Source: Zingiber officinale (lineage: Eukaryota > Streptophyta > Magnoliopsida > Zingiberales > Zingiberaceae). From it: a DNA stretch of 64,000 bases. A program made the position numbers and the translations under genes. The stretch lies in NCBI RefSeq assembly GCF_018446385.1, contig NC_055989.1:132025004-132089003 (forward strand), given 5' to 3'. Below the pieces are notes generated by a model. It was not told the DNA's origin. It did no database searches and was given only the letters and a program-made list of their open reading frames with translations. Positions 439 to 56,642 of the stretch are shown here, one piece after another (the first letter of the stretch is position 1; every line of letters starts with the position of its first letter).

Positions 439-1883
439 GATAGAAGAAATAATTGTTGAGCTTAGAACATTGTTTGGCTCAGTTGCGGCTATACCTGTTC
501 AAGTGTTTCTGACAGGGTAAAGTTCTTTGTTGCACCATTCATACTTTGCAAAACTTATGTTGGCTTTGTCTTTAATCTGTTGCCTCTCTTGATTGTTGTA
601 AATATCTGATTTGTGCATATTTGAACTTGGCTGAGCTTGTTTTCTCAATACTATAAACCTTTTGATATACGGTAACTTCATTAGACAAGTTCCCTTGTAA
701 ATATATCTATTTTGTATTTTTCATAAAGCAATATAGCAATGATTTGTAGGGCGTGCCTGCAAATTTCTGAAGGATATACATCCAACCTTGGGTCAATCTT
801 TGAGGAATTCCTCAGCAAATGGAAGCTTGTGGATGACAAAATGTACATTTTGACAGATGCAGAACCTCAATGTTCTAATAAAGGAAGCCCAAAGCAGCTT
901 GTAATGAGTCCTGAAAAGTACTTGGCGGTTGCTGAAGTTTATACCATAACAGTTCTTGGGCAAGTCTTTCATAATCTTAACCTTGCAATATCCTGGACAG
1001 AGGAAGCAGAGTTGCTTGAAGAGAGCCGTCAGGTAAGATTTCCATCTCAAGTCATATCGGCTTTCTGCATGTTGATGCATGCAATTCAGTAAATTCTGTA
1101 ATCTAGTTGATCTTAAAAGTTAAAACCCAAATCATATCATAGAAGTCGTTAATTTTATGCAAATTATGGTCCTATTTATAGATAGCAGGCTTTTTAGTTT
1201 TATACGCCCGACCACTAACGTATACTTTCACCACCAGCGAAAGGATCATGCATTAAAGTTTCTTTAGAAAATCCATTAAAGTTTTCATCATTCATCCTTT
1301 GCAGGTCTTGCATAGGAGGTTACACTCTTTGCTAAATGCTCAAAGGCTAGACCATGCGCACTCGTCTTCTGCCAATGGATCCATGCAAATTGGAAATGAA
1401 ACCTACCCTAAAGCAAGAATACAAGAGCTGCAATCCGACGAGAGCAGATCGATAGCGAGTTCTTTAAAAACTTCTCATCCAAGCAAGAAAATCGCGGATC
1501 AAATATTCTGGTGGTTTGATACAGTCCGTATCAAAGTTGGCAACATTCAGCTGGTTCTTCCTCGTGGGAAAAATTGGCTCTTTGGCTTCTTGATCATTCT
1601 AGCCTCCTACATTCTCCGTCGCAGAACTACTATGCTGAAGCGGTAAGGTTACTCATTTCTTCACATCAATTGCTAGTGAATTTTTGTCTAATAGGCTACG
1701 TAATTGGTTCAACAAGTTCGTTAGTGTGCCATCACTGACCCCTCGCCTTGCGAACCACACAGATTGGTCGCTAGACAAGCTTCAGTTGTTAAAGGGGCTC
1801 TGCTTGATGCCTGGCGACTGGCGTTCTCTGTCCAGGTGAACCCGCTGGCTGCTATCCAACAGCTTCCCTCTGCTCCGCAATGA
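439..1883 (+). CDS. APEM9: APEM9-like peroxisomal tail-anchored protein, 3' part (4 exons)
   Basis: Four exons can be spliced in one frame: 439-516, 750-1032, 1305-1642 and 1763-1883, all with GT/AG borders. They give about 272 C-terminal residues. Recognisable pieces are VFLTG..CLQISEG, FEEFLSKW, MSPEKYLAVAEVY, ISWTEEAELLEE and RRLHSLLNAQ, then a hydrophobic segment (NWLFGFLIILASYIL) and a basic tail ending near QVNPLAAIQQ. This layout fits plant APEM9, a peroxisomal membrane protein that tethers the PEX1-PEX6 ATPase complex and so plays the part of PEX26/Pex15. Family assignment is from memory of its layout, not from a search. The last exon is easy to miss: the donor after codon AAG-CG at 1642 leads to an exon at 1763 that completes Arg and runs to TGA at 1881-1883. 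If that intron were retained, translation would stop at 1646. The 5' end is not in view. Confidence 0.68.
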
Positions 1884-3580
1884 AACGCCCAGTGATGTAT
1901 GTATAATAATGCCCAGTGGAATTGAGTTTATACTGCAGTATTATGTAAACAATACTATTCTAATTGTTTACACTTCATATAGCTGTTTCTGTAATTCTCA
2001 AAAATTAATATTTATTTATTTATTTATTTATTATTTTTTTAAATAATAAAAGAACACACTATAAGCATCATGGTCGTCAACCGCTGCTCTGGCTTGGAGA
2101 GAACATTTCCACTGAATTATATTGACGAGGATGTTCATGACCTAGCAAGCCTGAGGAAAGTATGACTGAGTATGAGCTGTGGCAGGAATTAGAGAATGAG
2201 TCATGCATGCCGATCTAGGCAAAGGAAGAAGCTGATCGTGAGAACTCAAAGTCAGAGGGCAAGATTGGGATTTTCTTGATAGCAAGGTCACTCAACGGCG
2301 CTCTCACAGTCGATTTTCTTGGGAAAGAGTGCCATGGTGATGAATCGATATTGTTGCAAATGTATTGGCGTGTACATTTCCAGTACCACTAATAAAATAA
2401 AAATGTAACATATATATATTTTTAAATTTTTAAGAAGAATTATAATATGGTAAAAAATTTCCCTCTTTAATAAATATATAAATACGTAGCTTTATACATT
2501 ACATATACAATCAATTTTGTCGTTTTACACGATTTGAAACCAAAGCAAAGTCGGAATCTCCTTTATTTTTATACCAAAATAAGTTGATAACTCGATAAAT
2601 TTGATTTATTTGATTGGATTCTAATATGATTGCTTTTATGTTTTTTTTTTTTTTTGTAAAACATGTGATTCATGCATCGTTTGAAAAGACGAGACTTCGT
2701 AAAGAATATTTATTTACAGGATGATTCAGCATGACAATTTAAAAAAAAAATAAAGAAAGAGAAAAAATAAAGTAAAATAATTTTGTTTTCATTTTCTTTG
2801 ATGGAATAAAGAGAGGAAAGGAGAGAGTTAGTTTTTTTTTTTTAAATATCTTTTTTTAATTTTACTCTCCTAAAATACTATTCATGCAAAGATTCAATTA
2901 TTTTTTTTTTCAATTTTATTAATAATTACACTCATTAAAAATGAAGTTCTAAAATGCCTATCCATAGCATTGCGTGAAGGACTCTTAATAGTTAATGCCA
3001 CTATTGCCATCCTTTGACATTCTTTGCCTCAATTGAAATGTGCCTCCATGAACTTATATTTGTACTTTTAATATGTGCTATTTAGCTCTAAATTCTACAC
3101 CTTTCTATGATCCACCCACCCTAATTTTAACATCACTTGCAATAATTGTTCGACAAAGGAATACAAATGATGTATAAAATTCAAAAAAATGAGAGGGGCA
3201 TATTGAAATGAAGCCATAACATTTAGAGTTTATTGCTTGAATTCATATATCAATAAGCATGATCGAAGTACTCCACTTTATATGGATAATCCATTTTATT
3301 AAAAATATTTTTTTTAAAACAAACAAGCAAAGCAAATAAAGCATGCGTCTATAAAGAAGTCCATATGAAGCAACAAGACCAATCTCCCACGCCATCAGTA
3401 GAAGTACTCAAACATCTACCGGTTTCACGATTAGATAAGAAGGCAGTTGCGTTTCATGATGGGCCGATGAAAGGAGTCCTTTATGCGCAGCTCGCTTGGT
3501 TTCGCACGAGCACATCGTTGCTCAATGTGAGTGAGACTCAGGGACTAGTGTAGGCGTGCGGGTCCCGCCTGACTCACGCC
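1884..3580. other. AT-rich intergenic stretch between APEM9-like and ERF genes
   Basis: It begins with the presumed 3' UTR of the APEM9-like gene. It holds a TTTA/ATTT run near 2006-2040 and several poly-T or poly-A tracts (2641-2656, 2739-2750, 2830-2845). Apart from the decayed coding-like patch at about 2090-2380, no gene was seen. Confidence 0.5.
2090..2380 (+). pseudogene. Decayed coding-like fragment, family not identified
   Basis: Three overlapping frames read like protein but shift into each other: one with NYIDEDVHDLASL, one with MTEYELWQELENES, and one with KEEADRENSKSEGKIG followed by about 30 more open codons. The composition (charged, helical) and the smooth hand-over between frames suggest an old exon broken by small indels. 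I do not recognise the family. It could also be chance open frame in otherwise AT-rich DNA. Confidence 0.25.
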
Positions 3581-3587
3581 TGTCCGG

Positions 3588-3594
3588 TATAAAA
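3588..3594 (+). promoter_or_regulatory. TATA box of the ERF gene
   Basis: TATAAAA lies about 45 bp before the ERF start codon at 3639, in a GC-rich promoter. A start of transcription near 3620 would fit. The position agrees with an intronless ERF gene. Confidence 0.5.
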
Positions 3595-3638
3595 GGGGTC
3601 GCAGTGCTGTGTGAGATGAGCGATTTATTTTTTTGTTG

Positions 3639-4096
3639 ATGGAGCGGCGGCGGTACAGGGGGGGGGGGTGCGGCGGCGGAAGTGGGGGCGGTGGGTGTCA
3701 GAGATCCGCCGGCCCAACAGCCGCACGCGCATCTGGCTGGGGTCCTACGACACCCCCGAGAAGGCGGCACGGGCGTTCGACGCCGCCTCCGCCTGCCTCC
3801 GCGACCGCCGCGCGCGCCTCAACTTCCTCCGACGATGCACCAGCTCCGCCGGCCTCCGGGCCCGGCCTCTCACCGTCCTCCAGATCCAGGCCGCCGCAGC
3901 CCGCCACGCCGCCTCCGCGTCGCCCTCAGATGGGCCTCGGTCCGAGAGCCAAGTGGACGATATAGACGATCATTTCCCCGGATTCTGCGTGGACAGCTCG
4001 CGATCCACGTCACCGCCGCTGTCGGGCGGAGCCCACTTAACCAGCCACGCGGAGGATATAGATTGGTCCACATTCGAGCCGCTCCCCGCGCGCGAT
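3639..4096 (+). pseudogene. AP2/ERF transcription factor, 5' part, frameshifted and interrupted by a MULE
   Basis: The start ATG at 3639 opens MERRRYRG, the YRG element of an AP2 domain. A run of 11 G (3658-3668) then breaks the frame. The following frame continues the domain with [31 protein letters not shown] and [13 protein letters not shown]2/ERF proteins bind GCC or DRE boxes in the nucleus. After the domain comes an acidic motif, [12 protein letters not shown], typical of the C-terminal region of several ERF groups. The frame runs into the MULE terminal repeat at 4097 and stops at 4198. The last 9 bp before the element (4088-4096) are the target duplication. The G-run looks like a real homopolymer expansion, but a sequencing error there cannot be ruled out. 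Confidence 0.8.
4088..4096. repeat. Target site duplication of the MULE, left copy (GCGCGCGAT)
   Basis: The 9 bp GCGCGCGAT sits directly before the left terminal repeat and is repeated exactly at 10387-10395 directly after the right one. Nine bp is the usual duplication made by Mutator-like elements. Confidence 0.88.
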
Positions 4097-4539
4097 GAGT
4101 CCAGATCCTCTGCGCCCGCCTCCCGTTCGCCCTCTGCGCCCGTCGCTACGCGACAAAAAACTCACGCGCTAAGCATGTGCGTTTCTCCGCTCCAATAATA
4201 AAACCCAGCTCCAACGCACACATATCGCTTCCTGCTGATCGGTCTGTTGACCGATCAGCAATCAGCAGACCGATCAACAGGAATGCTGATCGGTCATGCT
4301 GACCGATCAGCATTCCAGCAGGAAGATACTAATGTTTGCTTTATTAACTTTTTTTTAAATTTTTTTTCTTTTTTTTTTAAAAAATAAAATAATAAATAAA
4401 AACGTTTCTAATACATATAATAATTATACAAGTCCAATATACTTCGATCCATATTAATCCTAATAAAAAATAGTAAATACTAATGTTATATTTTTGTAAT
4501 ATTAGGATAATTAGTAGGCATTAACGATCAGTCTGCTGA
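4097..4539 (+). repeat. MULE left terminal inverted repeat
   Basis: It matches the reverse complement of 9953-10386 with only small indels and scattered changes. The outer 140 bp are GC-rich and the inner half is AT-rich. Five copies of GATCGGTC or GACCGATC at about 4237-4312 form short palindromes. The copies may be transposase binding sites; that is inference. Confidence 0.85.
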
Positions 4540-4559
4540 AAAAGCCCGCCGAAAAAGCC

Positions 4560-4724
4560 CGCTTCTCCTCTCCGCTTCTTCTCCAGCCGACGACGGAGCT
4601 CTCTTCGCTTCTCCAGCCGAAGACGGAGCTCCCTACGACCGCAGAACCTCGCGAACCCTAGCTCTCAGACGATTCCCTCTACTCCCTCTGCGCCCGCTGC
4701 CCCGTGTGCCCTCTTCGCCCGGAG
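4560..4724 (+). promoter_or_regulatory. Probable non-coding first exon (5' UTR) of the MULE gene
   Basis: A pyrimidine-rich, GC-rich stretch ends with donor GGAG|GTAACA at 4724/4725. It holds two near-identical direct copies of a unit like CTTCTCCAGCCGACGACGGAG. The downstream ATG at 5291 would then follow a 5' UTR intron. No exact acceptor was fixed. Confidence 0.4.
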
Positions 4725-5290
4725 GTAACAAAGATTGCATCATAACGAATTATGAATTTTAGTTGGCCTTGATATTTGGGTGGCTACATTGATGTTTCAA
4801 TAACTTCCTTATCATTTCTAATTTTGTAAATGTCACAGAAAAATCCTGTGCTCAACCATGTTACTAAAATCCTAGATATTGGTTTTGTATCTAAGGACAT
4901 GCTTGATCCTTATGTTGGAGTTGGAAACCTCATTATTTCTCTATTTATCTTACTTGCTCATGCAAACTGGAACCTAAAATTTTAAGTTGAACTAATGGTA
5001 AATTACTGCTTCAAATCTTAAATTTTTTTGCTAATTGGCCGCAGCCTCGCGCTCTGTGAATGAAACCTATTGTGATTACTGAAAGCACAGCACTTTACAG
5101 TATATGGTCCATTGTTCTGGATCAGCTTGAAGTGCTTGCACATTTTCAGGATTTTTCTGTGACATTTTTTCACATGTTAAGTTTCCTAGAAAGTTGTTCA
5201 TTGCTATTTGTTAATAATAAAACTGATATTACTTAATACTGATTGTAGAACAGATCAGAAGTATCCTCTGAAAGGTGTTCTTGTTAAGTC

Positions 5291-8028
5291 ATGGAGGGCG
5301 AATCTACGAGTTGTCGTAGGTTGAATTTTGATGAGTCAATTGAAGAGTATTCTGAAGCAAACCAAGGCTGTGGTGATTATGAAGTTAATATAGAAGAAAG
5401 GGCTGATGAAGGTAATAAGATTCATAGTGCGTTATATTGAACTTTATATACTTCATTTTTTACATAATTTGATTATCTATGTGCATTGTTAATTGATTTG
5501 TTTGCATTAATTGATTAATTTTAAAGGCAATGAAGATGATACAGAGATTTTCCCCCCATTAAGCACAGATGAATTGGTGCCAAAAATTGGTATGAAATTT
5601 CAAACAGAAGAGGAAGCGTATGACTTTTATTTGAAATATGCTAAACAAGTTGGATTTGGCATACGAAGGACAAGAACCCATAATGATAATTCGGGCAGAT
5701 TAATTGACAGGACGTTTTGTTGTAGTGCACAAGGAAAAAGGGGAAAGGACAAACAAGATATTTATGTGAAGCAAAGTCGTGCTGAGACAAGGTTTGGTTG
5801 TGATGCTAAACTGAGGATTAGTTGTCGAAATAATGACAAGTTTTATGTGGTGAACTTCATTAAAGAGCATAATCATTATCTTTCAAGCCCAAACAAAACA
5901 CATCTCTACAGATGTCATAGGAACATATCTTCTTCTGCAGCGATACAAATTGAGATGGCAAGTGAGGTGGGAATCCCCCCAAAAGCATTTCATGATCTTA
6001 TGATGAGACAAGCAGGTGGGAGGGAGAATTTAGGGTTTATTCCTGAAGACTATAAGAACTACTTGCGATCTAAAAGAACAAGAAATATGAGAGTGGGGGA
6101 TACAGGAGGTGTTCTAGAATATTTGTAGAAAATGCAATGTGATGATCCAAATTTTTTTAATGCTATTCAAGTTGATGAAGATGATTTGATCACAAACATT
6201 TTTTGGTCTGATGCTAAGATGAGAGATGATTATGGCAATTTTGGAGATGTTGTTTGTTTTGACACAACCTATAGGAAGAACAATGAAGGTCGTCCAATTG
6301 CATTGTTCGTGGGTGTTAATCATCATAAGCAATCCATAATTTTTGGTGCAGCTTTATTATATGATGAAACTACTTTGTCATTTGAATGGTTGTTTGATAC
6401 CTTCACTAAAGCTATGTCTGAGAAAAAACCAACAACTATTCTTACAGATCAAGATGCTGCAATGGCAAAGGCTTTAGCTTCCAGATGGCCTGAAACACAT
6501 CATCGTTTATGCATTTGGCACATTTATCAAAATGCCGCAATACATTTGAGTGGAGTTTTTTCTCAATTCAAAGAGTTTGCTAAAGATTTTACCTCTTGTA
6601 TATATGATTTTGATGAAGAGGAAGACTTTCTTTCTACTTGGAACTTGATGTTGACTAAGTATGCATTTGAAGATAATGATTGGTTGAGACGTTTGTTTAG
6701 CATAAAGGAAAAATGGGCTTTAGTATATGGAAGACAAATATTTTGTGCGGATATGACTACAACCCAAAGAAGTGAGAGCATGAATAGCATTTTGAAAAGG
6801 TATGTCACTTATCAGCATAAGTTTTTAGAGTTTTTCAATCACTTCGAAAGATTGCTTCAGGATCGTCGATATGAAGAGTTAAAAGCAGATTTTAGATCCA
6901 ATTCAAGTGTTCCATGTTTATTGTATCCGGTTGAAATATTAAAACATGCTAGTTATACTTATACTCCTGAGGCATTCAAGTGTTTTGAAAAAGAATGGTA
7001 TAAATCTCATGATTCTATTGTAGAAATTTGTGAGATTGTTGGATCACATGCAACATACAAAGTTACTTCGCACAAAAAGAAGCACCATCATATAGTTACA
7101 CTCTATTCATCTTCTGAAAAAATTCAGTGCAGTTGTAGCTGTAGAAAATATGAATTTGCTGGGATTTTATGTTCTCATATTTTGAGAATATTTTCTATGA
7201 AAAATATTATGAAGATCCCAAATGAGTATATTTTGAAAAGATGGACAAGAAATGCAAAAGGTGGATACTTTGAAGGTAATGATACAATTGTGAACAAAGA
7301 TAGTTTGGATCCAAAAATTCTTCACAATATGCGATATAGAGATTTGTGTGGGTTATCTGTTCAATTGGTTACCAAAGCAGCAGAAAGGGATGACACCCAC
7401 ATGGTTGTTAAAAATGCTATGTTGAGCTTATGTAAGATGGTTGATGAAAAATTACAAGTTAATGAATCAATTGTGCATCAATCAAATCTTAGCCAAGAAG
7501 CTAGTCAGTTGGTTCAATCTCTAGATGACACAACAAGAAATTTGAATGAAACAGAGTATCAAATTGGCGAAGGAAACGATCTTACAGTCAAAGGAATTAA
7601 AGCTAAGAAGAAAACAGTTTCAGGCAAGAGGTTGAAAAGAGGCATAGAACAAATTTCTAGAAAAAAGAAAGGGGCAAGCAAAACTAACCAAACTCCAACA
7701 ATTGTTCAGGTTTCATTCTTACTAATATTAGATTTTTTTTGTTTGATGTTACATTTAAAAAGCATATAGAATTAAATAATTTTATTTTTTTAATAGGGTA
7801 TAGAAGATCCCAATATAGAAGATCAATTTCCACCACTTTTGCCAACACAACTATCTCAGGTTTACTTATTTTTTAACATTCCAAAATTAAATATTTATTA
7901 ATAAATTCAGGCAACTATCTCAGGCTAACTTTGTTAGTGATTATTATCAGGTGACTTCCTCAACTTCAAAATTTCAGACTGCTATCTCAGCTTTGGACAA
8001 CAGATTAAACGAAGAACAAGTAAGATGA
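5291..8028 (+). pseudogene. FAR1/FHY3-type MULE transposase with one in-frame amber codon
   Basis: Exons 5291-5411, 5527-7709, 7797-7859 and 7924-8019 join in one frame. The start is MEGESTSCRRLN. A FAR1 DNA-binding zinc finger follows (residues about 55-150, FYLKYAKQVGFGIRR, TFCCSAQG, CDAKL, EHNHYL). The MULE transposase core comes next, with acidic residues at VVCFDTTY (about 281), TILTDQD (about 344) and QRSESMN as the likely DDE set. A SWIM zinc finger, CSCSCRKYEFAGILCSH (about 574-590), is near the end. One codon breaks it: TAG at 6126-6128, between GVLEYL and KMQCDDPNFF, where relatives usually have Gln (CAG). The frame on both sides is open and clean, so the mutation looks recent. If the intron after 8019 is retained, the protein ends at TGA 8026-8028; if spliced, it runs in frame into the captured exons downstream. 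Confidence 0.85.
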
Positions 8029-8188
8029 ATACCACTTGCTATCATATTTTATTATGATAGTTTGACATTTACATTATGTGTTTATTACAATACATCATGA
8101 GTATTATTGTCTTGCCTAATCTGCTTATTATTGCTTTGCCTACTCTCTACTTCTCACATAGTTATATTCCCCCCCTCCCCTTTTGCAG

Positions 8189-8429
8189 CGAAGATATCCA
8201 CCTACTGGATACCACTCGCTGGATACCACCTGTTGGATACCGCCTGCCAGATTTTTTCCTCCAGGACATCCACCTACTGGATATCCACCGTCAGGATATC
8301 CCGCATCTGGATATCCACCTTTCGGATATCCTCCAGTTGGTTATCCACCTTCGGGATATCCCCCAGTTGGTTATCCACCTTCTGGATATCCACTCTTTGA
8401 GTATCCTGGTACATCAGCTCCACACCACG
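8189..8429 (+). CDS. GYPP-repeat (XYPPX-type) exon captured inside the MULE
   Basis: A strong acceptor (pyrimidine tract and TTTTGCAG) precedes 80 codons rich in Gly-Tyr-Pro-Pro. The repeats read GYPPSGYPASGYPPFGYPPV and similar, ending PGTSAPHH. The last G before donor GGTGAG leaves phase 1. Such repeats occur in plant XYPPX proteins, for example the glycine-rich protein A3 type, and in CYSTM-like proteins. The first third (about 8207-8250) has slipped out of the repeat frame by small deletions and come back, giving HSLDTTCW in place of GYPP units. The upstream transposase exon ends in phase 0 after Gln, and this exon begins in phase 0 with Arg-Arg-Tyr, so splicing would fuse it in frame to the transposase. 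It is best read as a captured host exon. Confidence 0.6.
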
Positions 8430-8980
8430 GTGAGTCTCATTTTTTATTACCAATATTCACATATCAAGTTTATAGGTGACATGATGTTTACATGTGGGCA
8501 TATTCTGAATACAAGCGGACAGCACGGGCATCGAAAGGAAAAACATGGTACCTCTTGAACAAATAGGAAAAACATGGTACCTCTTCTTTTGTAGGTACCT
8601 CTCGATCTTTTGTTACAGTGTAAGATTGCTTATGTAGCAGGAATTTGGTACACCTCAAATTAACTGCCTTAGTTAGAAATGCTACATGTATTATGTAGGT
8701 ATATGCTAAACTGCACAGATTGTTTCCTTCCATATATAAACAAATTTCTCAATTCAATTGGATTTTTTTTGTTGAAAATATTAGTTCTTATTATACAATT
8801 CCTTTTGGTGATGTTTAGTAATGGCTAGTTCCTTGATTCAAGTCATACAGTTTTGTGTTTTGAGTTTCATTAATATTATTGACGATCCTTTACAATGAAC
8901 ACAAATTACTTGTCATTCGTGTTAAAAATCTATTTGATGTAAGTATATTGTCTGTTCAATATTATTTCTATCTTGTGTAG

Positions 8981-9285
8981 GAAAGTTCAGCTTGGGTTAC
9001 TTCACATTTTGGGCAATCATTGCCGTCGCCTGGGGTTCTATTGCCTCCGCCTTAATCATAGTCTTGCCAATACTGGAAAGCTGGAGGACAATTACATGTG
9101 TCTTGAGTGGCATGTTCACCAACGATGCTTTGATTGAAAAGGTAGATGAAATGAATATCCGGATGCGTGCCATCATGTTGGCAATGCCAGAAATCGAGAG
9201 ACACTACTTGCTGGAAAAGGGCACGGCCAAGAAACTTGATTCCTTTGAAGAGGCAACCCCCGGTGTCACAGGTGGTGGTTGCTGA
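8981..9285 (+). CDS. DUR3 urea/H+ symporter last exon, captured inside the MULE
   Basis: The exon starts after acceptor TTGTGTAG (8980) and encodes 100 residues to TGA at 9283-9285. It has the C-terminal features of plant DUR3: YFTFW, a membrane helix (AIIAVAWGSIASALIIVLPI), ESW, GMFTND, KVDEMN.R.RAI.LAMPE and YLLEK.TAKK. Full DUR3 is a roughly 700-residue plasma-membrane symporter of the SSS family, so only the last membrane segment and tail are present. The exon needs one base from upstream to fill its first codon, and the GYPP exon supplies exactly that (G + GA = Gly). It lies between the MULE repeats and has no other DUR3 exon upstream, which fits transposon capture. Alone it cannot transport urea. 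Confidence 0.75.
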
Positions 9286-9734
9286 ACTGTGACTGCTTGC
9301 TATGAGGAACTTCGCGACTTTGTATCATCTATTATGTGCTGTGTAAACTACTTACTAAAGGTGCATAATTTGTTGTACGCTATGCTCTTGCTTTTCTCCT
9401 TCAGCTTTGTTCAGTTTCCAAGATTTAATGGCAAAAATATTACTGTGTTTGACATAAGATTTATTTTGAAAATGATGTAACACTTTCAGTGATTCGAATT
9501 GACCTCTATCTTCGATCAATTCTACCACAGCCCATGTTTCCTAAATTTTGTGGAATGATGCGCATGAATCTTATATTGAGCACAAGAAAACTGTTAACTT
9601 GAACTATTATGTTTTGTTAAAACTATCCACAAAACATTATGACATCTGTTCAACAGGCTCACACTTTAGTTCCTCATCACGTCACCCATCATATTGAAAG
9701 TTTAGTTCAGAAACATATTGTGAACTCAAAGCCA
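9286..9734. other. Non-coding stretch inside the MULE after the DUR3 exon
   Basis: Probably the original 3' UTR of the captured DUR3 exon followed by host flanking DNA. No further exon was seen. Confidence 0.4.
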
Positions 9735-9960
9735 GGTGGTTATCTGATCGGTCACCAGACCGATCAGTAACCGATCAGTAACCACCGAGAATTACTGATC
9801 GGTCTACAGACCGATCAGTAACCGATCAATAACCACCGAGAAGTTACTGATCGGTCTGTGGACCGATCCACAGCAGGCAACGGAGGCAACGGAAGGATAG
9901 GGGGATCGGTCTGTGGACCGATCCACAGAAGGCTGATCGGTCCACAGACCGATCAGCAGA
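9735..9960 (+). repeat. Subterminal cluster of GATCGGTC palindromes
   Basis: Five inverted pairs of GATCGGTC and GACCGATC, with 4-8 bp between the halves, are packed into about 225 bp next to the right terminal repeat. Between them lie direct repeats like CAGTAACCACCGAGAA. The same octamers also occur in both terminal repeats. Dense octamer pairs next to a transposon end suggest protein binding sites, but a plain minisatellite expansion is possible. Confidence 0.7.
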
Positions 9961-10386
9961 CTGATCGTTAATGTCTACTAATTATCCTAATATTACAAAA
10001 ATATAACATTCCTAATATTACAAAAATATAACATTAGTATTTACTATTTTTTATTAGGATTAATATGGATCGAAGTATATTGGACTGGTATAATTATTAT
10101 ATGTATTAGAAACGTTTTTATTTATTATTTTATTTTTTTTTAAAAAAAAAAAGAAAAAAAATTAAAAAAAAGTTAATAAAGCAACATTAGTATCTTCCTG
10201 CTGGAATGCTGATCGGTCAGCAAGACTGATCAGCATTCAGCATTCTTGCTGATCGGTCAACAGACCGATCAGCAGGAAACGATATGTGTGCGTTGGAGTT
10301 AGGTTTTATTACTGGAGCGGAGAAACACACGTGCTTAGCGCGTGGGTTTTTTGTCGCGTAGCGACGGGCGCAGAGGATCTGGACTC
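9953..10386 (-). repeat. MULE right terminal inverted repeat
   Basis: It is the inverted partner of 4097-4539. A 28-bp unit (around 9992-10045, ATTACAAAAATATAACATT) is duplicated in tandem here but single on the left. Confidence 0.85.
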
Positions 10387-10395
10387 GCGCGCGAT
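10387..10395. repeat. Target site duplication of the MULE, right copy (GCGCGCGAT)
   Basis: Exact copy of 4088-4096, directly after the right terminal repeat. Confidence 0.88.
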
Positions 10396-10650
10396 CATCT
10401 CCTGGGACTCGGAGTGGACAGCTGGCGATCCACGTCGTCCACCACGTCCCTATCGCACTCGGAGGCGCCCAACTCTGATGAACACGTAGACTGGTCGTTC
10501 ATTGAGCCGCCGCACGCCGGCGTTCATCTCCCGGATTTTGCGGCGTCCATGGAGGACTTCGCACTCGGTCTATGGTTCTCGGCGGCGGTGCCGCCGGCAG
10601 AGGAGCACCCAATGCTTTCCTTTGGAGCTTCTGAAGGATCACCGCTATAA
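10396..10650 (+). pseudogene. AP2/ERF transcription factor, 3' part beyond the MULE
   Basis: After the duplication the ERF frame continues with HLLGLGVDSWRSTS, then DEHVDWSFIEPP, DFAASMEDFALGLW and a stop at 10648-10650. Codon phase matches the left part: both read the duplicated bases as Ala-Arg-Asp. The DSWRSTS...DWSFIEPP part resembles DSSRSTS...DWSTFEPLP on the left side of the element. The original protein therefore carried a tandem repeat of about 40 residues, with the element inserted between the two units. The acidic DW motifs may belong to the activation region. Without the MULE and the upstream G-run shift this would be one intronless ERF gene. Confidence 0.75.
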
Positions 10651-11432
10651 AAACAGCACGAGGTGGAGCTCTTGACGTCATTTCTCATAATAAGGGAAAC
10701 AACATTCACTAATTCATTCAAAATATTTTTTAAAAATTATTATTCATTGGACATTATTTTTATTTGTTATTTTTTTGGTGAAATTTTTATTTGTTAATTT
10801 GTCTGCAAAACCGCCGACAAATTTTGGCCGTTTGCTGTCGAGTAAAAACATTTGTAATCAAATTTGATTTTATATATATTTATATTCATTTGCTCTCATA
10901 TTTGCTTATTATCTCTTCAATTTTGTGAAAGATAATTATGCTGGAAAAAATATGTTCGTGTGTTAGCAAATAGATATCCTAGACCACAAATTTGGGCGTC
11001 CAAAATTAGAGCAGTTAATTTAGATTGAGTTCATCAAATTGATATCTGTTAAATAATTTAAATGGATTGAATTAAATTTTTATCAATCCAAAACTGTTAC
11101 GGATTGATCTGCCTAGGCCCGTGATCCATGTGGATCGACCTATAATAGGCTTGGTTAACCTACGAATTGAAAAAGACATGTACTTTATTTTTTGATAGGG
11201 CAAATGTAGCATGAACATGAGTACATTTTATACCATGATCATATTTGATTATTATATTATTTGAGTAAATCATTAAATTAAATAAATATATTTAATAGAA
11301 ATTTAATTGTGGATCTAAACAAATTATTAAGGAGAAATTTTTCTATAAACAAAATTTTAACAACAAATCAAATACATTATACATGCACGAAGGAGAGATT
11401 TATTAATTTCATATCAATGTTCCCTTTGGCCG
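10651..11432. other. AT-rich intergenic stretch
   Basis: Presumed 3' UTR of the ERF gene followed by AT-rich DNA. No coding or repeat structure was recognised. Confidence 0.4.
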
Positions 11433-12111: not shown

Positions 12112-12279
12112 GCACATTCTTACCTGAGCGAGAGTGGAGCGACATCTAATGTGGATGATCTAACATAGCTATTTTTTTTAAATTTTCTTTTATCTATATG
12201 CAATGCTTTTCTCTCTCCTATATGCAAGCAACTCTTTTCTTTCTCTAGCATGCAAGATGGTACTAGTTTGTACAAACAA

Positions 12280-12760
12280 CACCAGTGTTGGTGGTGGTCT
12301 TTAAAGACTACCACCACATTGGTATTGGTATTTAAAGACCAACACCATCGTTGGTGGTGATTTCAACAGTAGTTGATGCTGGATTCAAACCAACACCATA
12401 TTAGTTAGTGCTGATCTTTAAAGACTAGCATTGATTTGAAGCTAACACCTGCTAGCAACAACATGGTGTTGGTCTTTAAAGACCAGCACCAACATGATGC
12501 CGGTCCAATGTGGTGCTGGTTTGAAACCAACACCACATCGGCTGGTGTTGGTCTTTAAAGACCAGTACCAATGCTGGTTTGAAATCAGTATCAACCAACA
12601 CCAACGTGGTGTTAGTATTTAAAGACCAACACCAATGCAGTTTGAATCAAGCACAAGCCAGTACTAACGTAGTGATGGTCTTTAAAGACCAACACTAATA
12701 TGGCGTTGGACTTTAAAAACCAACACTAATGTTGGTGTTAATTTGTACAAATCAATATCA
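12280..12760. repeat. Palindromic minisatellite centred on TCTTTAAAGA
   Basis: About eight units of a hairpin-like motif, GGTGTTGGTCTTTAAAGACC with variants, are spaced unevenly at 30-80 bp. Each unit is itself near-palindromic, and between them lie CAACACCA or GTTGGTGTTG blocks in both directions. The whole stretch can fold into many small hairpins. Confidence 0.75.
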
Positions 12761-14250: not shown

Positions 14251-15003
14251 GTCTTCTGTTAGACCCTTCCATAGTCTTGAATTTTCTTTTTTTTTAGTAT
14301 GATTTTGGTTGTGATCTGATGGAAGTTGCCTTTTTTTTCGTCGCGAGTTGCTGAACTTTTTAAGTTTTGTAATTATCGATTTTCGGGACTTAGGAAGGAA
14401 TTTTTAGAGATGCTATGCCGTGCGGAACTCTTGGTTATTCGATGCGATGTAGGGATGGCTTGAGGATTTAGGGACTCAGAAGTTGTGAACGATAAAACAG
14501 TATTCATCGATTTCTTGATCTTAGTTTCCTAGTCAATTTTATGATAAACTAAGCTTAATGCCAAGAACATATCCTTGTGTTCAAAACTCAAACCCTATCC
14601 ATATCCATCCAAAGTCAGTATGAGCAAATGAGAATTCTGTATGTGTATACTAATTTTACTATAGTTTGTATCATACATTAGCTTATTAGTCAAATTCCAG
14701 TGGAAATATGAGAAAGGGAAAAAAATCCAGGGAAAAAAGATGGCACTGTTATAAGCTTGTATACCTAAGATTTTATCTCACAACATTCCTTGAGGAGATT
14801 ATTCATTTCTTGCCTATGATCCTTCTTCCAGAAAATAATTGCTAATGTTTCACCACCATTTTTTTTCCTGATGGGTTAACATTATTACTTAGGCCCCTAA
14901 GATGAATCTACTTCCCTAACATGCATAGCTTACACAGATCCTGTTCCTGATGTTTGAGATCTTTACTATTCTTTGTAGGAGTCTAAAATTGCATTTCCTG
15001 CAC

Positions 15004-17205
15004 ATGGCTGGTTATGACGGTGAGAAGGATTATTCGTGGATAGAGAAAGTGAGATCTGGAGGTGCAGTTCCATATCTTGAACCAGAAAATTGTTCAAATG
15101 GTTGGGCGACTCCTACAAGTGATAATTTCATGGTTAGAGGTCCCAATTATCTCTCAGACAAGATAAAAATACGCGGTGGTGATTACTTACTAGAGCCTCT
15201 TGGATTTGATTGGATAAAAGGTCCTGCAAAAGTTAGTGAAATACTTAGAAATGCAAATCACCGTGTCAGGAGAGCTGTTGATGATGAAATTGAAAGAGGT
15301 AATAGACCTTTTGTTTGGGCCTTTAATCTACAACTTCCAACCAAGGATAATTATAGCGCAGTTATGTACTTTGTAGCCCTTGAACCTATCCAAGATGGAA
15401 CTCTTATGGATAAGTTTTTGAAAGGCGATGACAGCTTCCGTAATTCTAGGCTTAAACTGATAGCTAATATTGTTCAGGGTCCATGGATAGTGAGAACAGC
15501 TGTTGGCGAGCAGGCTATATGTATTCTAGGGAGAGCTCTTTCCTGCAAGTACACATCAGGGTTGAATTACATGGAGGTAGATGTGGATATTGGATCTTCA
15601 ATTATTGCAAATGCAATTGTGCATTTGGCATTTAGTTATGTAACAACTTTGACAGTGGACTTAGCATTTCTTATCGAGAGCCAGACTGAAGAGGAACTTC
15701 CGGAGCAAATTCTTGGGGCTGTAAGGTTCTCAAATCTAAACCCAGTTTCAGCTGGCATCTGTGATCTAACATCTGATGTGGATGCTGTAAGCCTCCCACC
15801 CTTGCTTCCCACAAGATTGTGGAGATCAATTGGATTTGGTTTTACTAGCCTGCCGTCACAGGGGAGCTTAGAACCTTATGCCAACGGAAATCTTCATGGA
15901 GAAGATGATGCAAAGAAGGATGAAAATTGGTATATATTATTAAACTTTATTTTACACTGCTTTTTTTTTTTTTTAAAAAAAAATCCTTTTCTCTTATCTA
16001 TTATGTTTCTTGTAAGCATGACACAGTTACATTACTCCTAATGATCACAATATTTGAATTTCAATCTTTTTTATGGAAGTTTTTCTATATTACAAGTGCC
16101 TTGTTCGATCTCATAAGAAAAAAGCATCCTTCTGTGGTTGCATAGACCTAAGATAATATGAAAAATCCTTAGTCTTAAACAAATAGCTTAAGATTCATGC
16201 TTATGCTTGTGGGATTCTTGTCTAGTTACTAGAATTAATCTACTACATGTTCAATTTTTCATTCATTCTCGAGACTGACATTACATTGTTATCATTGTTT
16301 CTCATCTCGACTTCAAAATGATAACACTGTAATGTCAGTTTCAAGGATGAATGAAAAATTGATCATGCAAGATTAAGTCTAGTGACTCGCCTGACCCACA
16401 CTTGTCTTGAATATTCCAAGTTCATCTGACTGATTTGACCAATCACTCAATCCAATTGATTGACTTGGATAGCTTGACCCATCTAACACAACTCATCTAG
16501 CTGGTCCTTTCAGCCAGTTTAGCTCAACTACCCCTTTCAACCTGTTTGGCTTGACTACCCCTTTCGGTCGATTTGGCTTGGCTACCCCATTCAATGACTA
16601 TCCCTTTTGACCTATTTGGTTAAAATATCCCTTCAGACTATTTGGCTTGATTACCCCTTTTGGCTTATTTGGCTCGGCTACTCCTTTGGCATGACTTTCT
16701 TGTTCGATTAACTGGCTCAACCAACCTAGTTAACCTATTCAGCTCGACTAACCCAATTAGCTTTTTTAACCCATTCGGACTAGCCTGCCAAATCAACTTA
16801 CTTGACCTGTTTTGTTCAACGAACTTGACTAGCTAGTTTGACCTAGTTAGCTCGCTTAATCCGAACCTCCCAACTTAGTTCATCTAGCCCACCGACTATC
16901 CTCCCAATTGGTAATGCCAGATAGCTTGACTCATGCAAATGAAGGAATAACTATATGAATAGGGATCACAATTTTATGAGGTAGTAGTTTAAATTAGTTT
17001 TTTCAATCAAACATGGAAATGTTTCTCATAAGAATTAGTAGAATAATTATTCATTTGAACAACCCAAGTTTCAGTCTCAGTGGAGCAGGACCTACAAATA
17101 GTTTCAACCACCAAATTTCAATGCATTGACAACATCAACATCCTCTTTGATCTCTGTTTGATGTGTACCTTAACATAACTAACTAGATGCATTTTTACTT
17201 GCAGA
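15004..17205 (+). CDS. EDR2-like C-terminal domain (DUF1336) protein
   Basis: ATG at 15004 opens MAGYDGEKDYSWIEKV and a frame of 308 codons. A DUF1336/EDR2_C domain covers nearly all of it: NFMVRGPNYLSDK, PLGFDW, PFVWAFNLQLP, FLKGDDSFRNSRLKLI, QGPWIVRTAVG, YMEVDVDIGSS, LAFLIESQTEEELPEQ. The domain occurs in EDR2, a lipid-binding negative regulator of salicylate-linked resistance, but here without its PH and START domains. Short DUF1336-only proteins exist in plants and their role is not well known. The frame upstream of 15004 (to 14950) is probably intron. The coding exon ends at donor 15929/15930 (AAT-TG|GTATAT). Spliced to the acceptor at 17204, the next base makes TGA, so the stop codon spans the junction. 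Reading through the intron would add 37 hydrophobic, unlikely residues. Confidence 0.78.
16222..16388. repeat. Fold-back (inverted repeat) in the EDR2-like intron
   Basis: Two arms of about 75 bp pair with few mismatches: CAATTTTTCATTCATTC..GACTGACATTAC against GTAATGTCAG..GGATGAATGAAAAATTG. The loop is short. It could be a small MITE or a hairpin RNA source. No flanking duplication was fixed. Confidence 0.65.
16430..16900. repeat. Degenerate short tandem repeats in the EDR2-like intron
   Basis: Units such as TTGGCTTGACTACCCCTTT and GGCTCGACTAACCC recur with much variation, 20-30 bp long. No coding frame runs through them. Confidence 0.55.
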
Positions 17206-30955: not shown

Positions 30956-31913
30956 GTGAATAATTGTAGGATGGATAGAAGGACTTTAGTCAAACTTTGT
31001 TATTTGCTAACGACTCATGGACAATTGCAAGGAAATAGAAATATGTCAATTAGTGAACTTATAATATCTTTTATTCACATTATTGCATATAATGTGAAGA
31101 ATAGGGTCCTAAAACGACAAACATCTAGATCCGGCAAGACAGTTAATATACAATTTCATTTAGTTTTGAACTCCACTCTAAGGTTACACAACATTTTACT
31201 TGAGAAACCAAAACCAATACCAGAAAATCAGACAGATGAGAGATGGAAATGGTTTAAGGTACAAGTATATAATTTTCATAAATTTATTTTTAAAAATATT
31301 TTAATGTACACAATAAGATTAATTTAATTTTATGATACTTTTTTGAGTGTAGGGTTGTTTGGGAGCATTAGATGAGACTTATATTACTATCAATGTCCTA
31401 GTAGATGATAAACCTAGGTATCGAATTAGAAAATATGAAATTGCAACCAATGTCTTGGATGTATGTACACCGAATATACAATTCAGCTATGTCTTACTGG
31501 GTTGTGAAGGATCTACGACAGATGGTAGAGTCTTAAGGGATATATATATATATATATATATTGTAATATTTATAGGTGCTTATTATTTGTGTGATGCTAG
31601 ATACACAAATGGGGAAGGATTTTTGGCACCATATAGAGGTCAAAGGTACCACTTAGCTGAATGGAGGCAAGGTTACCGACTAACTACAATCAAAGAGTAC
31701 TTTAATATGAAACACTCTCAAGCAAGAAATTGCATTGAGAGATGTTTTGGTATTTTAAAAGCTAGATGGGCTATATTGAGAGATAAGTCTTTTTATTCAT
31801 CTAAAACTCAATGTAGGATTATATCTGCTTGTTGTATTCTCCATGATTTTATAAGATCTGAAATGACAACTGATCCAATAGAGACTGAGGTTGGTGTCCT
31901 TGAGTCAAAATGA
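30956..31913 (+). pseudogene. PIF/Harbinger DDE nuclease (HARBI1-like), broken
   Basis: Two pieces: 30956-31300 (MDRRTLVKLCYLL, HIIAYNVKNR) and 31351-31913 (GCLGALDETYI, ATNVLDVCTPNIQF, TTDGRVLRD, YTNGEGFLAPYRGQRYHL, NMKHSQARNCIERCFGILKA, RIISACCILHDFIR). The three acidic residues of the DDE set are visible (ALDET, TTDGRVL, CIERCFG). Between the second Asp and YTNGEGF a (TA)n run at about 31540-31561 replaces the usual 12-15 residues, and an apparent intron-like sequence follows. The 5' end is missing or split. The protein is surely inactive. Confidence 0.75.
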
Positions 31914-50191: not shown

Positions 50192-51836
50192 ATGGCCCAA
50201 CAAGAAGGATATAACACCGTTCGTCCCCCACTATTTTCCGGAGAGGACTTCGGATATTGGAAGGGGCGAATGGAGATATATCTGAAGATCCAGTTCGACA
50301 CCTGGATGATCGTCAACTGGTACCGACGGTAAGCCTACATCCTGTGAAAATTGGAAGCCAGCATTTATCAAAAAGGTGGAAGCCGACGCCAAAGCCACCT
50401 GCACCATCCAATGCGGTCTTACCAAAGAAGAGCTCAACAGAGTCGGTCCATTCTCCTCCGCAAAGGAACTATGGGAGAAACTGATCGAACTTCACGAAGG
50501 CACCTTGGAAACCAAGGTAAGTAAGCGTGATTTGTTACTAAATAAACTGTACAATTTGAAAATGCAGGAAGGCGAGACGGCAAGTTCTTTGCACGCCCGA
50601 ATTCAAGATATCCTGAATTCTCTACATGGAATCGGGCAGAAGGTAGAAAACAGAGACAAAATAAGGTATGCCCTTAACTCATTCCCTAGGAGTACACTAT
50701 GGGCATCAATGGTAGATGCCTATAAAGTCTCTAAGGATTTGTCCTCCTTAAAATTAGACGAATTATTTAGTGAGTTTGAACTCCATGAACAAACTAATGC
50801 ACAGCCATCCGAGAAAGGGATTGCTTTGGTTGCAAGAACGAGTCGAACACGGGAATCAAGAGGACGGCGAAAAGTTGAATCGGAATCAGAAGACGAACCC
50901 GATTCAGAAGATTCAGAAGATGAACTGGCCAGCGAATTTGTGAATCTTGTAAAGAAACTCTACAAGAAGAAGAAGGGCTTCAACAAGAAAGATCTGAAGA
51001 AGGCAGTTCAATCCAAGGAGGCTCAACAGAACTCAAAGACAAAGTTCGAAGTCACTTGCTACGGGTGCAACCAAAAGGGGCATATAAAAGCCAACTGCCC
51101 AAATCAAAAGGAAGCCAAGAAGCAAAGAAGAAGGAAAGTCCTAAAGGCAACCTGGGACGAATCCTCTTCGGAGGACGAAGACGACGAACTCGACCAAACG
51201 AGTCTACTCGCATTGATGGCCCGGGACCAGATCAGCGAATCCGAGAGCAAGTCAGAAGCCGACTCCGAGCAAAGCCACGGATCCGCATCCGTTTCCGAAG
51301 GGCCAGACTCCGCTGTAAGTATTCCTAGGCTTAATAATTTAGTCAATTATTTACTTCGCAAATTAGCCAAGTCAAATTTGAAAATTAAGTCACTTTTAAA
51401 AGAAATAACCATTCTTAAAGGAGTAACTAACTCAAAATCTTTAATTGAAGATTCAACTCAAGTACAACAACTTGAGAAAGAAAATTCAAATCTGAAAAAT
51501 CAGTTAAATGATTTAAAAATTACTTTAGAAAAGTTCTCTCTGAGATCCAAGAATTTGGATCTAATTCTTGGAACACAAAGAGCCGTCTACAATAGAACTG
51601 GACTAGGATATAAAAGTAAAAAGAAATATAAATCCTATTTATCCTTAATAAACAAACAAAGTAGTAAATCAGTCCAAGCATGGGTCCCCAAGTCCAAATT
51701 GATCAATCAAATTGGACTTGGCCAATACTGGATTTCGAAGGATCAAATATACTACCTCGACAGATCATATCGAGGCCGTGATCCAGGGAAAGCTAAAATG
51801 AAAACGATCAAAATTCAAAATTCGAAATTAAATTAA
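50192..51836 (+). pseudogene. Copia gag (capsid and zinc knuckle), one frame shift
   Basis: ATG at 50192 opens MAQQEGYNTVRPPLFSGEDF, followed by GYWKGRMEIYL. The frame shifts at about 50310-50330 and stops at 50332. From about 50334 the +1 frame continues with SCENWKPAFIKKVEADA, the capsid helices (LWEKLIELHEGT, LLLNKLYNLKMQEGE, LNSFPRSTLWASMVD), an acidic region, and the knuckle CYGCNQKGHIKANC (about 51057-51100). A coiled-coil-like region (LRKLAKSNLKIKSLLKEIT, LEKENSNLKNQLNDL) follows, then a stop at 51834-51836. Apart from the single shift the frame is open for 500 codons. The gag packages element RNA into cytoplasmic particles. Confidence 0.85.
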
Positions 51837-51837
51837 A

Positions 51838-52165
51838 AATCTAAAATTAAATCAGATTCAAAACTTATTCGAAATTAAATTAAAATTCGAAATTAAATTA
51901 AAAATCTAAAATTCAAAATCAAATTCAAAATTCAAAATTCGAAATTAAATTAAAAATCTAAAATTATCAGATTCAAAACTTATTAGAAATTAAATTAAAA
52001 TTCGAAATTAAATTAAAATTCGAAATTAAATTAAAAATCTAAAATTATCAGATTCAAAACTTATTTGAAATTAAATTAAAATTCGAAATTAAATTAAAAA
52101 TCTAAAATTAAATTCAAAATTTGAAATTAAATTAAAATTAAAAATCAGATTCAAAATTCAACAAG
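51838..52165 (+). repeat. AT-rich tandem repeat, first block (AAATTAAATTAAAATTCG)
   Basis: Units of 15-40 bp built from AAATTAAATTAAAATTCG and AAATCTAAAATT recur many times directly after the gag stop. Confidence 0.8.
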
Positions 52166-52734
52166 TTGAAATTATAAAAAGTAGATGGAGGATTCAAACT
52201 AGCTGGCACCTCCAACTGAACTACCCGACAGGGTAACTGAACCTAACTTACCCGGAATGGGTAAAACAAGAATAGATTACCCGGCAGGGCAATTAAGATT
52301 AGATTAAAAATGGGATAAGTTTAACTTGAACCACAGTACTGGTGAAGTTTTTGGATGATAGTACGTTAGGGAAGCTTGGGCATCGCATGTCAAGGAAGAT
52401 ATGGCTTCGACCTGGTGCATTTGGCCAAGTGGAACTGACCGAAGCTACCCTTAAATGGATCCTAACTAGTTAGACCAAGTTTTAGTATTAAGTTCAATGG
52501 GTAGGACTATTTGGAAAACCTCGAAGACATGGTTACTTTAATGAGCTCCTTGTGACTCACCATAGCCCAGAAGTTTATCCAAAGAATGCTTACTTGTTGA
52601 ACCCAAAGCTAAACCTGAATCTAACACAAAGTTAAAACCAGACCCTTGAACTCAAAAATAAATCATCTCACATCAATTATAGGATTCCCTGATTGACAAT
52701 TTAGATCAGGTGAGATGACTAAGAAATAAAATTA

Positions 52735-53540
52735 TTTAAAAATCTTTTCAAAATCTTTTAAAATCTTTTCAAAATTATTTTCAAAATTACTTTAAAAATC
52801 TTTTCAAAATTAATTTCAAAATTACTTTAAAATATTTTCAAAATTAATTTCAAAATTACTTTTCAAAAATTAATTTCAAAATTACTTTAAAAACTTTTCA
52901 AAATTAATTTCAAAATTACTTTAAAATCCTTTTCAAAATTATTTTCAAAATTACTTTAAAAATCCTTTTCAAGATTAATTTCAAAATTATTTTAAAATCT
53001 TTTAAAAATTAATTTCAAAATTATTTAAAAATCTTTTCAAAATTAATTTCAAAATCTTTTCAAAATTAAATTCAAAATTATTTAAAAATCTTTTCAAAAT
53101 TATTCAAAATCTTTTCAAAATTAATTTCAAAATTATTTAATCTTTTCAAAATTAATTTCAAAATCTTTTAAAATCTTTTCAAAATTAATTTCAAAATTAT
53201 TTAAAAATCTTTTCAAAATTAATTTAAAAATCTTTTAAAAATCTATACAAAGTTAATTTCAAAATCTTTTAAAATCTTTTCAAAATTAATTTCAAAATTA
53301 TTTAAAAATCTTTTCAAAATTAATTTCAAAATCTTTAAAATCTTTTAAAATCTTTTTAAAATTAATTTCAAAGTGACTTTAAAAATCTTTTCAAAATTAA
53401 TTTCAAATTTACTTTAAAAATCCTTTTCAAAATTAATTTCAAAATTACTTTAAAAACTTTTCAAAATTAATTTCAAAATTATTTAAAAATCTTTTAAAAG
53501 TTAAAATTATTTGAAAAACTTAAAATTCAAAATTATTTGA
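52735..53540 (+). repeat. AT-rich tandem repeat, second block (TTTTCAAAATTAATTTCAAA)
   Basis: More than 25 units of about 30 bp, such as CTTTTCAAAATTAATTTCAA, fill 800 bp of the spacer before pol. A 570-bp stretch between the two blocks is ordinary DNA with ACCCGGCAGGG phrases. Confidence 0.85.
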
Positions 53541-53627
53541 AATCTCAAACTCAATAAACACAGTGTTTGCTTCAATCACGCTATCTCCATTAAAAAGAAA
53601 CCAATTCAACTACTTCATGTGTAGGAA

Positions 53628-56600: not shown

Positions 56601-56642
56601 AGTGGACTTAGAAGGCAAATAGGAATGTGTTGGGTAGAATAG
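53628..56642 (+). pseudogene. Copia pol (protease, integrase, reverse transcriptase, RNase H) with two stop codons
   Basis: One frame runs 3015 bp with only two stops, both TGA (54402-54404 and 55599-55601). Order: aspartic protease LDSGCSRHMTG at the start; GAG-pre-integrase zinc finger WHRRLGH...CDACQKGK; integrase with [26 protein letters not shown] and [14 protein letters not shown]; reverse transcriptase with [41 protein letters not shown] and YVDDIIFGST; RNase H with SDSDYAGCKLDRKSTSGG and STTEAEYIAL. It ends with stop 56640-56642. The Copia order (integrase before reverse transcriptase) is clear. The frame begins in mid-protein at 53628; the stretch before it is the AT-rich spacer. The first stop lies where relatives have Arg (KRIRSDHGGEF), the second where they have Leu. 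Confidence 0.9.

Follow-up and report, generated by a model that had tools for sequence, protein, structure and literature searches.

The window examined here is a 64,000-nucleotide (nt) stretch of the ginger genome (Zingiber officinale, contig NC_055989.1, positions 132,025,004 to 132,089,003, forward strand). It carries a Mutator-like element (MULE) at window positions 4097-10386, whose transposase gene is followed in sense orientation by pieces of two host genes, namely an exon of GYPP repeats taken from a glycine-rich gene and, after it, the terminal exon of a gene for the urea transporter DUR3. At the DNA level, the extension of the transposase gene by exon capture is real and well documented. 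From comparison of the sequences we propose, with a probability of about 0.7, that the element belongs to a young family of transposase-bearing MULEs in which transduplication has lengthened the transposase gene.

The element and its transposase gene

The features of the element and of the exon that it splits are as follows, in window coordinates.

3620-4096, plus strand: 5′ part of a host AP2/ERF exon split by the insertion (Pfam AP2, expectation value (E) 8e-12)
4088-4096, unstranded: left target-site duplication (TSD) GCGCGCGAT, same letters as 10387-10395
4097-4539, plus strand: left terminal inverted repeat (TIR), from alignment with the right TIR
5291-5411, plus strand: transposase exon 1, with the ATG at 5291 (GT-AG frame)
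5527-7709, plus strand: exon 2, with FAR1, MULE (DDE) and SWIM domains (Pfam, frame)
6126-6128, plus strand: in-frame TAG that breaks the transposase of the window copy (residue 241 of the spliced frame)
7797-7859, plus strand: exon 3, 21 codons (frame)
7951-8019, plus strand: exon 4; if unspliced at 8020, it runs into a TGA at 8026-8028 (frame)
8160-8521, plus strand: stretch from a glycine-rich gene (BLAST match 8264-8521; left edge by eye)
8189-8429, plus strand: exon 5, GYPP repeats (frame, repeats)
8515-8558, plus strand: short terminal exon encoding GGQHGHRKEKHGTS and then a stop, via the captured gene's own intron (frame, family alignment)
8633-9737, plus strand: stretch from a DUR3 locus, with intron end, last exon and 3′ untranslated region (UTR); donor loci at C18:4.055 Mb and C17:3.254 Mb
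8981-9285, plus strand: exon 6, the DUR3 last exon, with one predicted hydrophobic helix (DUR3 matches, donor locus)
9953-10386, minus strand: right TIR, from alignment with the left TIR
10387-10395, unstranded: right TSD GCGCGCGAT
10396-10650, plus strand: 3′ part of the host AP2/ERF exon (frame with the element left out)

The outer 22 nt of the TIR occur at just two sites in the window when up to three mismatches are allowed, at 4097 and, reversed, with the end at 10386, and these are both ends of the element. The left and right TIRs are identical in 393 of 407 gap-free aligned columns, with several length differences, the largest of 24 and 25 nt. Many copies of a palindromic motif, GATCGGTC...GACCGATC, lie within the TIR regions (4229-4320 and 9738-9960). 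The TSDs match at 9 of 9 base pairs (bp) directly outside both TIRs, and removing the element with one TSD copy yields a single open AP2/ERF frame across the flanks. Long TIRs (100-500 bp) and a target duplication of 9-11 bp are given as MULE criteria in an excerpt of PMC3310237. The window element has such TIRs and TSD, together with a MULE-type DDE transposase and several dispersed copies that share its TIR. The insertion is a canonical one for a MULE. A DNA search with the ERF site showed no natural empty allele (second haplotype), returning the window, a copy 20 kb upstream, and weaker matches to AP2 genes (at most 85%, at most 309 nt).

Exon 2 gives Pfam matches to FAR1 (E 5e-23), MULE (E 1.5e-30; PF10551 scores 106 bits against a cut-off of 27.6) and SWIM (E 7e-8). 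No ULP family was found among the Pfam matches of the six open reading frame pieces scanned, and the transposase core had no match in the PDB. With host fragments between MULE TIRs, the element is unlike a classical Pack-MULE in having a transposase gene. The best six GT-AG exons total 2982 nt, and their frame closes at the DUR3 stop, the TAG at 6126-6128 aside.

An earlier note, made from the window sequence, had described a fused frame through these exons. Its junctions are reproduced here. Specifically, exon 4 ends at 8019 in phase 0, after CAA and before GTAAGA; the GYPP exon opens at 8189 in phase 0 behind the acceptor ...CCCCTTTTGCAG and closes at 8429 in phase 1; and the DUR3 exon (8981-9285) needs a single extra base and ends in its own TGA. 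Its exon total of 3009 nt, like ours divisible by three, is not reproduced, and it overlooked the TAG. Because of this codon, the window copy is unable to make the full protein. An intron removing the TAG was considered and rejected, as nearby GT...AG pairs span merely about 9-18 nt (by eye).

Captured exons across the family

A search with window positions 7951-9740 gave 51 matches, of which the best 40 of 46 candidates were scored; frame, splice and stop counts are based on MAFFT alignments to the window copy. At least 11 copies on several chromosomes (the window and L011-L020, at 95-100% of the query) carry the transposase end, the GYPP exon and the DUR3 exon, and we call these type A. At least 12 others carry the transposase end and the GYPP exon with different tails, forming type B (L023, L024, L029-L034) and type C (L025-L028). 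The earlier note's refuting condition, copies that lack the two exons, therefore gives a mixed picture, with at least 11 copies that have both and 12 close relatives that have the GYPP exon without the DUR3 exon. The three subfamily 3′ ends are DUR3 (11 copies), an antisense Frigida-like fragment (four) and a third, different piece (eight). The type C tail of L025 combines the Frigida-like fragment (PF07899, E 2e-12) with GATCGGTC repeats resembling those near the window TIRs, and the tails of L026-L028 are 95-99% identical to it. A scan of two reading frames in the type B tails found no Pfam family, bar one match below the cut-off. The ends of type B (L040) and type C (L065, L066) contain stretches of 57-71 nt that are about 79-90% like the type A TIR, and between subfamilies the exon 2 majorities show 4 to 12 differences over 1257 sites. 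The sequences suggest that the transposase module and the element ends may have recombined.

The splice dinucleotides at 8020, 8187, 8430 and 8979 are intact in all 11 type A copies, as is the exon 1 donor GT, and the exon 1 ATG is present in 10 (not L016). Among the 12 type B and C copies, the donor at 8020 is kept in every one and the acceptor at 8187-8188 in 11 (lost in L028), and the GYPP exon is in phase in 19 of all 23 copies. The exon 2 frames of L029-L034 stand outside these frame counts because the loci begin within exon 2. Within type A, the frame over 6451-9285 is open in 7 of 11 copies, with two stops in L012 and frameshifts in L018, L019 and L020. Over 5291-6450, the window has its TAG, L016 is startless and out of frame, L018 is shifted, and the other eight are open where read. 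None of the eight other type A copies with a readable frame has a stop at the TAG position (L016 and L018, being out of frame, were left out of this comparison). The whole frame is therefore open in five copies (L011, which is 3 nt shorter but in frame, L013, L014, L015 and L017) and broken in six. A perfect 9-bp TSD flanks five (the window, L015, L017, L018 and L020), and four have one mismatch (L011, L012 and L014 over 9 nt, L019 over 10 nt); L013 has no TSD, and the left end of L016 was not found.

A gene on C13 and C14 of the same genome, which we take to be a glycine-rich A3-type gene, matches the GYPP exon at 81-82% (BLAST). This gene opens with MGGGKDKHDESDKGLFSN followed by GYPP repeats (translation by eye). 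The stretch at 8160-8521 contains its 5′UTR-intron acceptor, the repeat exon, the next intron and the first bases of the following exon. The splice donor CACCACGgtgagt is the same in gene and element, and the gene has a CCTTTTGTAGTGAAGAT acceptor (compared by eye). Its 5′UTR-intron acceptor reads CCTTTTGTAG and then TGAAGAT in L045, with one extra T in L044, and the counterpart in the element, matched by eye, reads CCTTTTGCAG and then CGAAGAT. An internal deletion has removed the gene's start codon from the element. Exon 5 includes three 14-nt units in succession among 15-nt units, with a net frame change.

The captured intron opens a splice path from 8429 to an acceptor at 8514, 85 nt past the donor, and on to the stop at 8556-8558. 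Of the 23 copies, 21 have AG at the end of this acceptor (8513-8514), and the window copy and L032 have TACAA instead. Exon 5 joined to the short exon reads GGQHGHRKEKHGTS and a stop, or a close variant, in frame in 19 of 23 copies, among which the window copy is counted by its frame despite the mutated acceptor; 9 of the 12 relatives without DUR3 share the in-frame stop. The window sequence at 8522-8590 recurs in type B and C copies, and the likeness among all three types ends at 8566-8590, 8 to 32 nt past the stop. Because this path is common to the family and the exchanges lie behind it, the joined frame of transposase, GYPP exon and short tail is the family-shared unit, which places the DUR3 tail second. 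The likelier default product would thus be transposase-GYPP-short tail, with DUR3 as a later alternative last exon or 3′ end; by parsimony, DUR3 appears to be the younger capture.

Exon 6 was identified through three solved DUR3 sequences (E 2e-27 to 2e-26) and covers residues 613-708 of a 773-residue DUR3; it is the last exon alone and no full-length urea-proton symporter. The DUR3 loci on C18 and C17 have the same acceptor and reading frame as the element. Window positions 8885-9703 match them at 93-95%, and 8633-8887 match the same locus about 2 kb farther upstream, at 99.2% and 96.9%. Compared with the family majority, the last exon differs at 16 of 305 positions from either donor, the 3′UTR at 17 of 413 (C18) and 18 of 411 (C17), and the intron end at 8888-8980 at 8 of 93 and 10 of 93, respectively. 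The exon 6 differences fall on the three codon positions as 5, 2, 9 and 4, 2, 10. This pattern is a hint of constraint, but changes on the donor branch could be enough to explain it, and the whole exon is no less diverged than the UTR. Of all 19-residue windows, the one strongly hydrophobic example lies in exon 6 (2.4; those of exons 1-5 reach 1.2 at most). A single-sequence model of the tail shows one long helix at low confidence (predicted local distance difference test score 68), and the tail has no relative in IMG/VR.

Two further observations concern the C18 donor. Over 8633-8887, only 2 of 252 positions differ from this locus, and the neighbouring intron end, exon and UTR are 89-96% alike (L042/L043). 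The donor also has about 1.97 kb extra between its two matches, which overlap by 3 nt.

By chance, a captured terminal exon lands in sense and in phase one time in six (1/2 × 1/3), so the frame fit of a single copy is unremarkable, and an in-frame DUR3 exon was rejected as proof of function. Conservation across many copies carries more weight, though the copies are young.

Sister lineage and neighbouring observations

In a search with the transposase (best 40 of 492 candidates scored), 22 places match at 96-100%, comprising 10 of 11 type A copies (not L018), eight of type B and four of type C; all are elements already known to carry GYPP. One type B place lies about 7 kb from L034 and ends at window position 7531, and the homology of L034 begins at 7527. 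As these ends meet, the two are one element split by an insertion. The next tier consists of 18 places at 86-88%. GYPP is absent in all four sister copies read (of the 18 listed) over 1.9-2.0 kb from the exon 2 end. Three of the four match exon 3 to 4 sequence (7823-7866 and 7912-7950), and the reading frame of L067 appears by eye to end shortly past this match. The 18 places did not turn up among the matches scored for the 7951-9740 query. Given their absence there and the four sisters without GYPP, the GYPP capture most likely came later than the split from the sister lineage.

Several copies deserve separate mention. The two parts of the split type B element (L034/L041 and C19:98711272-98713511) are separated, at the equivalent of window 7527-7531, by about 6.8 kb of other sequence, and they overlap by 5 nt. 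L019 (C4:132012508) is a second element copy in the same ERF site, 20 kb upstream of the window copy, with nearly the same TSD, in a tandem duplication of the locus. The flanks (window 3300-4096 and 10387-11195) match at 87% over 797 nt in the ERF-site search; in adjacent sequence, the left flank is 97.5% identical over 121 nt and the right 93.4% over 809 columns. The elements themselves are 98.8% identical over the aligned columns of 6451-9740, above the flanks, perhaps through gene conversion between them. L048 (C1:92802000-92811900) has, at its positions 1700-5917, several copies of the family TIR and a 175-nt part of the DUR3 exon (9108-9282, 98%). No match to the transposase was found within its 9.9 kb, and it is a non-autonomous, Pack-MULE-like derivative. 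A DUR3 match similar to that of L048 lies at C12:64059657.

Elsewhere in the window are inverted and direct repeats clustered around GGTCTTTAAAGACC (12274-12750), an EDR2_C gene exon (14929-16041, E 3e-76), a DDE_Tnp_4 transposase piece (31353-31913, E 9e-22) and a Copia-type retrotransposon (50310-56642, gag match E 1e-16; pol part named by eye). No Rfam family matched at gathering thresholds.

Explanations and known systems

We propose three steps, of which comparison of the copies shows the first two, the third being inferred. First, after the split from the roughly 13% diverged sister, the ancestor captured, in sense and directly downstream of the transposase, a piece of the glycine-rich A3-type gene with its 5′UTR-intron acceptor, repeat exon, splice donor and short intron. 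The captured acceptor is in phase with the last transposase donor, and splicing would add about 80 GYPP residues and a 14-residue tail ending at 8556-8558. Second, since the DNA past the stop at 8558 differs among the three subfamilies, at least two exchanges of downstream DNA followed. Third, the default mRNA would encode transposase-GYPP-short tail, and the DUR3 exon would provide the 3′UTR and poly-A site, or act as an alternative last exon when splicing passes over the weak 8514 acceptor or when this acceptor carries a mutation, which is the case in the window copy.

Several points weigh against this explanation. The copies are young, and an open frame may merely reflect little time. Among 22 copies (L034 was dropped, its locus being non-homologous before 7527), the substitutions in exon 2 (77 nonsynonymous, 29 synonymous, 11 stops) and in exon 5 (33, 11 and 2, respectively) are compatible with a neutral expectation that uses our own weighting of transitions. 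In type A, exon 6 has 10 nonsynonymous and eight synonymous changes (p = 0.10), and exon variability is like intron variability. The window copy has a mutated acceptor at 8514, and L028 has lost the one at 8188. The stop at 8026-8028 gives a complete transposase without any captured exon, and sister transposases could mobilise family members in trans. Finally, the 23 copies were found with a GYPP-containing query and the best candidates scored, such that relatives without GYPP may be missed.

Other type A values are exon 4, with four nonsynonymous and five synonymous changes (p = 0.08), and a pooled pairwise pN/pS (ratio of nonsynonymous to synonymous differences per site) for exons 2 to 6 of 0.58, 1.72, 0.30, 0.64 and 0.34, from pairs that are non-independent. 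Exon 6 may lean slightly towards constraint, though weakly. For the selection check on captured exons raised by the earlier note, exons 5 and 6 are compatible with neutrality within the family, and the codon positions of exon 6 against its donors give the hint of constraint described above.

A less probable but serious alternative is that the captured pieces are passengers, lying as cargo between the stop at 8028 and the right TIR, unjoined to the transposase and with in-phase sites by chance. The in-frame TGA 6 nt past exon 4, the one-in-six odds for sense and phase, substitutions within exons 5 and 6 that are compatible with neutrality, and the antisense fragment of one subfamily all fit such cargo. 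It would not lead one to expect that the 8020 donor and the 8187-8188 acceptor are kept in 11 of 11 type A copies and in 12 and 11 of the 12 others, that 19 of 23 copies have the GYPP exon in phase, or that the subfamily breakpoints found all lie past the stop at 8558.

The earlier note suggested that the transposase may have gained a repeat-rich linker and a membrane helix; in this reading the main product would carry a C-terminal DUR3 helix that tethers it to a membrane. At the DNA level the gain of the linker exon stands, being in sense, in frame and family-wide; the helix as part of the main product is unlikely. The frame and splice sites do fit, the pyrimidine tract is better at the DUR3 acceptor (14 of 20, against 10 of 20 at 8514), the window copy has a mutation in the competing 8514 acceptor, and five of 11 type A copies retain an entire open frame. 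Likewise, exon 6 has the hydrophobic window and the pN/pS of 0.34. The membrane tail is nevertheless weakened because a downstream intron and a stop came along with the captured glycine-rich gene, and because the window copy has a nonsense codon. Indeed, in 10 of 11 type A copies an intact acceptor of the captured gene leads to the stop (the frame of L019 is shifted earlier), 9 of 12 relatives without DUR3 share the short-tail stop, and DUR3 is by parsimony the younger capture. Furthermore, a transposase has to work in the nucleus. More speculatively, and improbable on present sequences, the lineage might have amplified with a transposase that ends in a host-derived GYPP repeat domain, and splice choice in type A might toggle between a soluble transposase-GYPP protein and a DUR3-anchored form excluded from the nucleus; if true, this would be a built-in brake on transposition composed wholly of captured host exons. 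A domesticated host gene with odd 3′ exons can be dismissed: its FAR1, MULE and SWIM domains follow the order of FAR1/FHY3, but the TIRs and 9-bp TSD rule it out, as do 11 copies on several chromosomes, six of them broken.

Host-exon capture by MULEs is mostly discussed for elements without transposase, and Pack-MULEs were reportedly described by Jiang in 2004. The lengthened transposase gene proposed here departs from that pattern. As in the Pack-MULEs and Pack-TYPE elements covered by excerpts of PMC8903248 and PMC3276141, the window element has MULE TIRs, a 9-bp TSD and exon- and intron-containing fragments of several host genes; unlike those, it also has a transposase gene, whose reading frame the fragments lengthen. 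The earlier note's statement that captures usually occur in elements lacking a transposase needs qualifying, as exceptions are published. According to portions of PMC2528002 and PMC13317346, transposase-bearing MULEs with a transduplicated ULP1 domain occur in Arabidopsis (KI-MULE), grapevine, melon and rice, and there too amplified elements carry host sequence beside the transposase; in grapevine, this sequence follows the transposase ORF. In these portions the captured ULP is a separate gene, reversed in KI-MULEs, whereas the ginger exons run in sense and fit the phase of the transposase donor. Rice CACTA proteins joining Tnp2 to ULP1 (an excerpt of PMC2528002) are similar in placing transposase and captured domain in one predicted protein, but belong to a different superfamily and carry a different domain. 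Among the titles and opening abstract lines listed in searches of the open-licence PMC literature, we found no description of a MULE transposase spliced in frame to captured host exons other than ULP. FAR1/FHY3 genes share the domain order of the ginger element, which differs from them as a transposon with TIR, TSD and many copies. MULE-derived genes are also treated in PMC8599713, in excerpts that do not concern captures.

The packFinder pipeline classes any element with a transposase match as autonomous (as stated in part of PMC8903248), and elements of the window type are thus probably unlisted as captures. More generally, pipelines that divide elements into those with a transposase and those with a captured gene would probably overlook such cases. 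In the ginger genome, an ordered series from a captureless sister through the GYPP capture to three 3′ ends shows that a transposase gene can be enlarged by capturing exons, and the donor genes, the splice sites and copies with broken or open frames can all be inspected. The effect of capture on the transposase protein thereby becomes a testable question.

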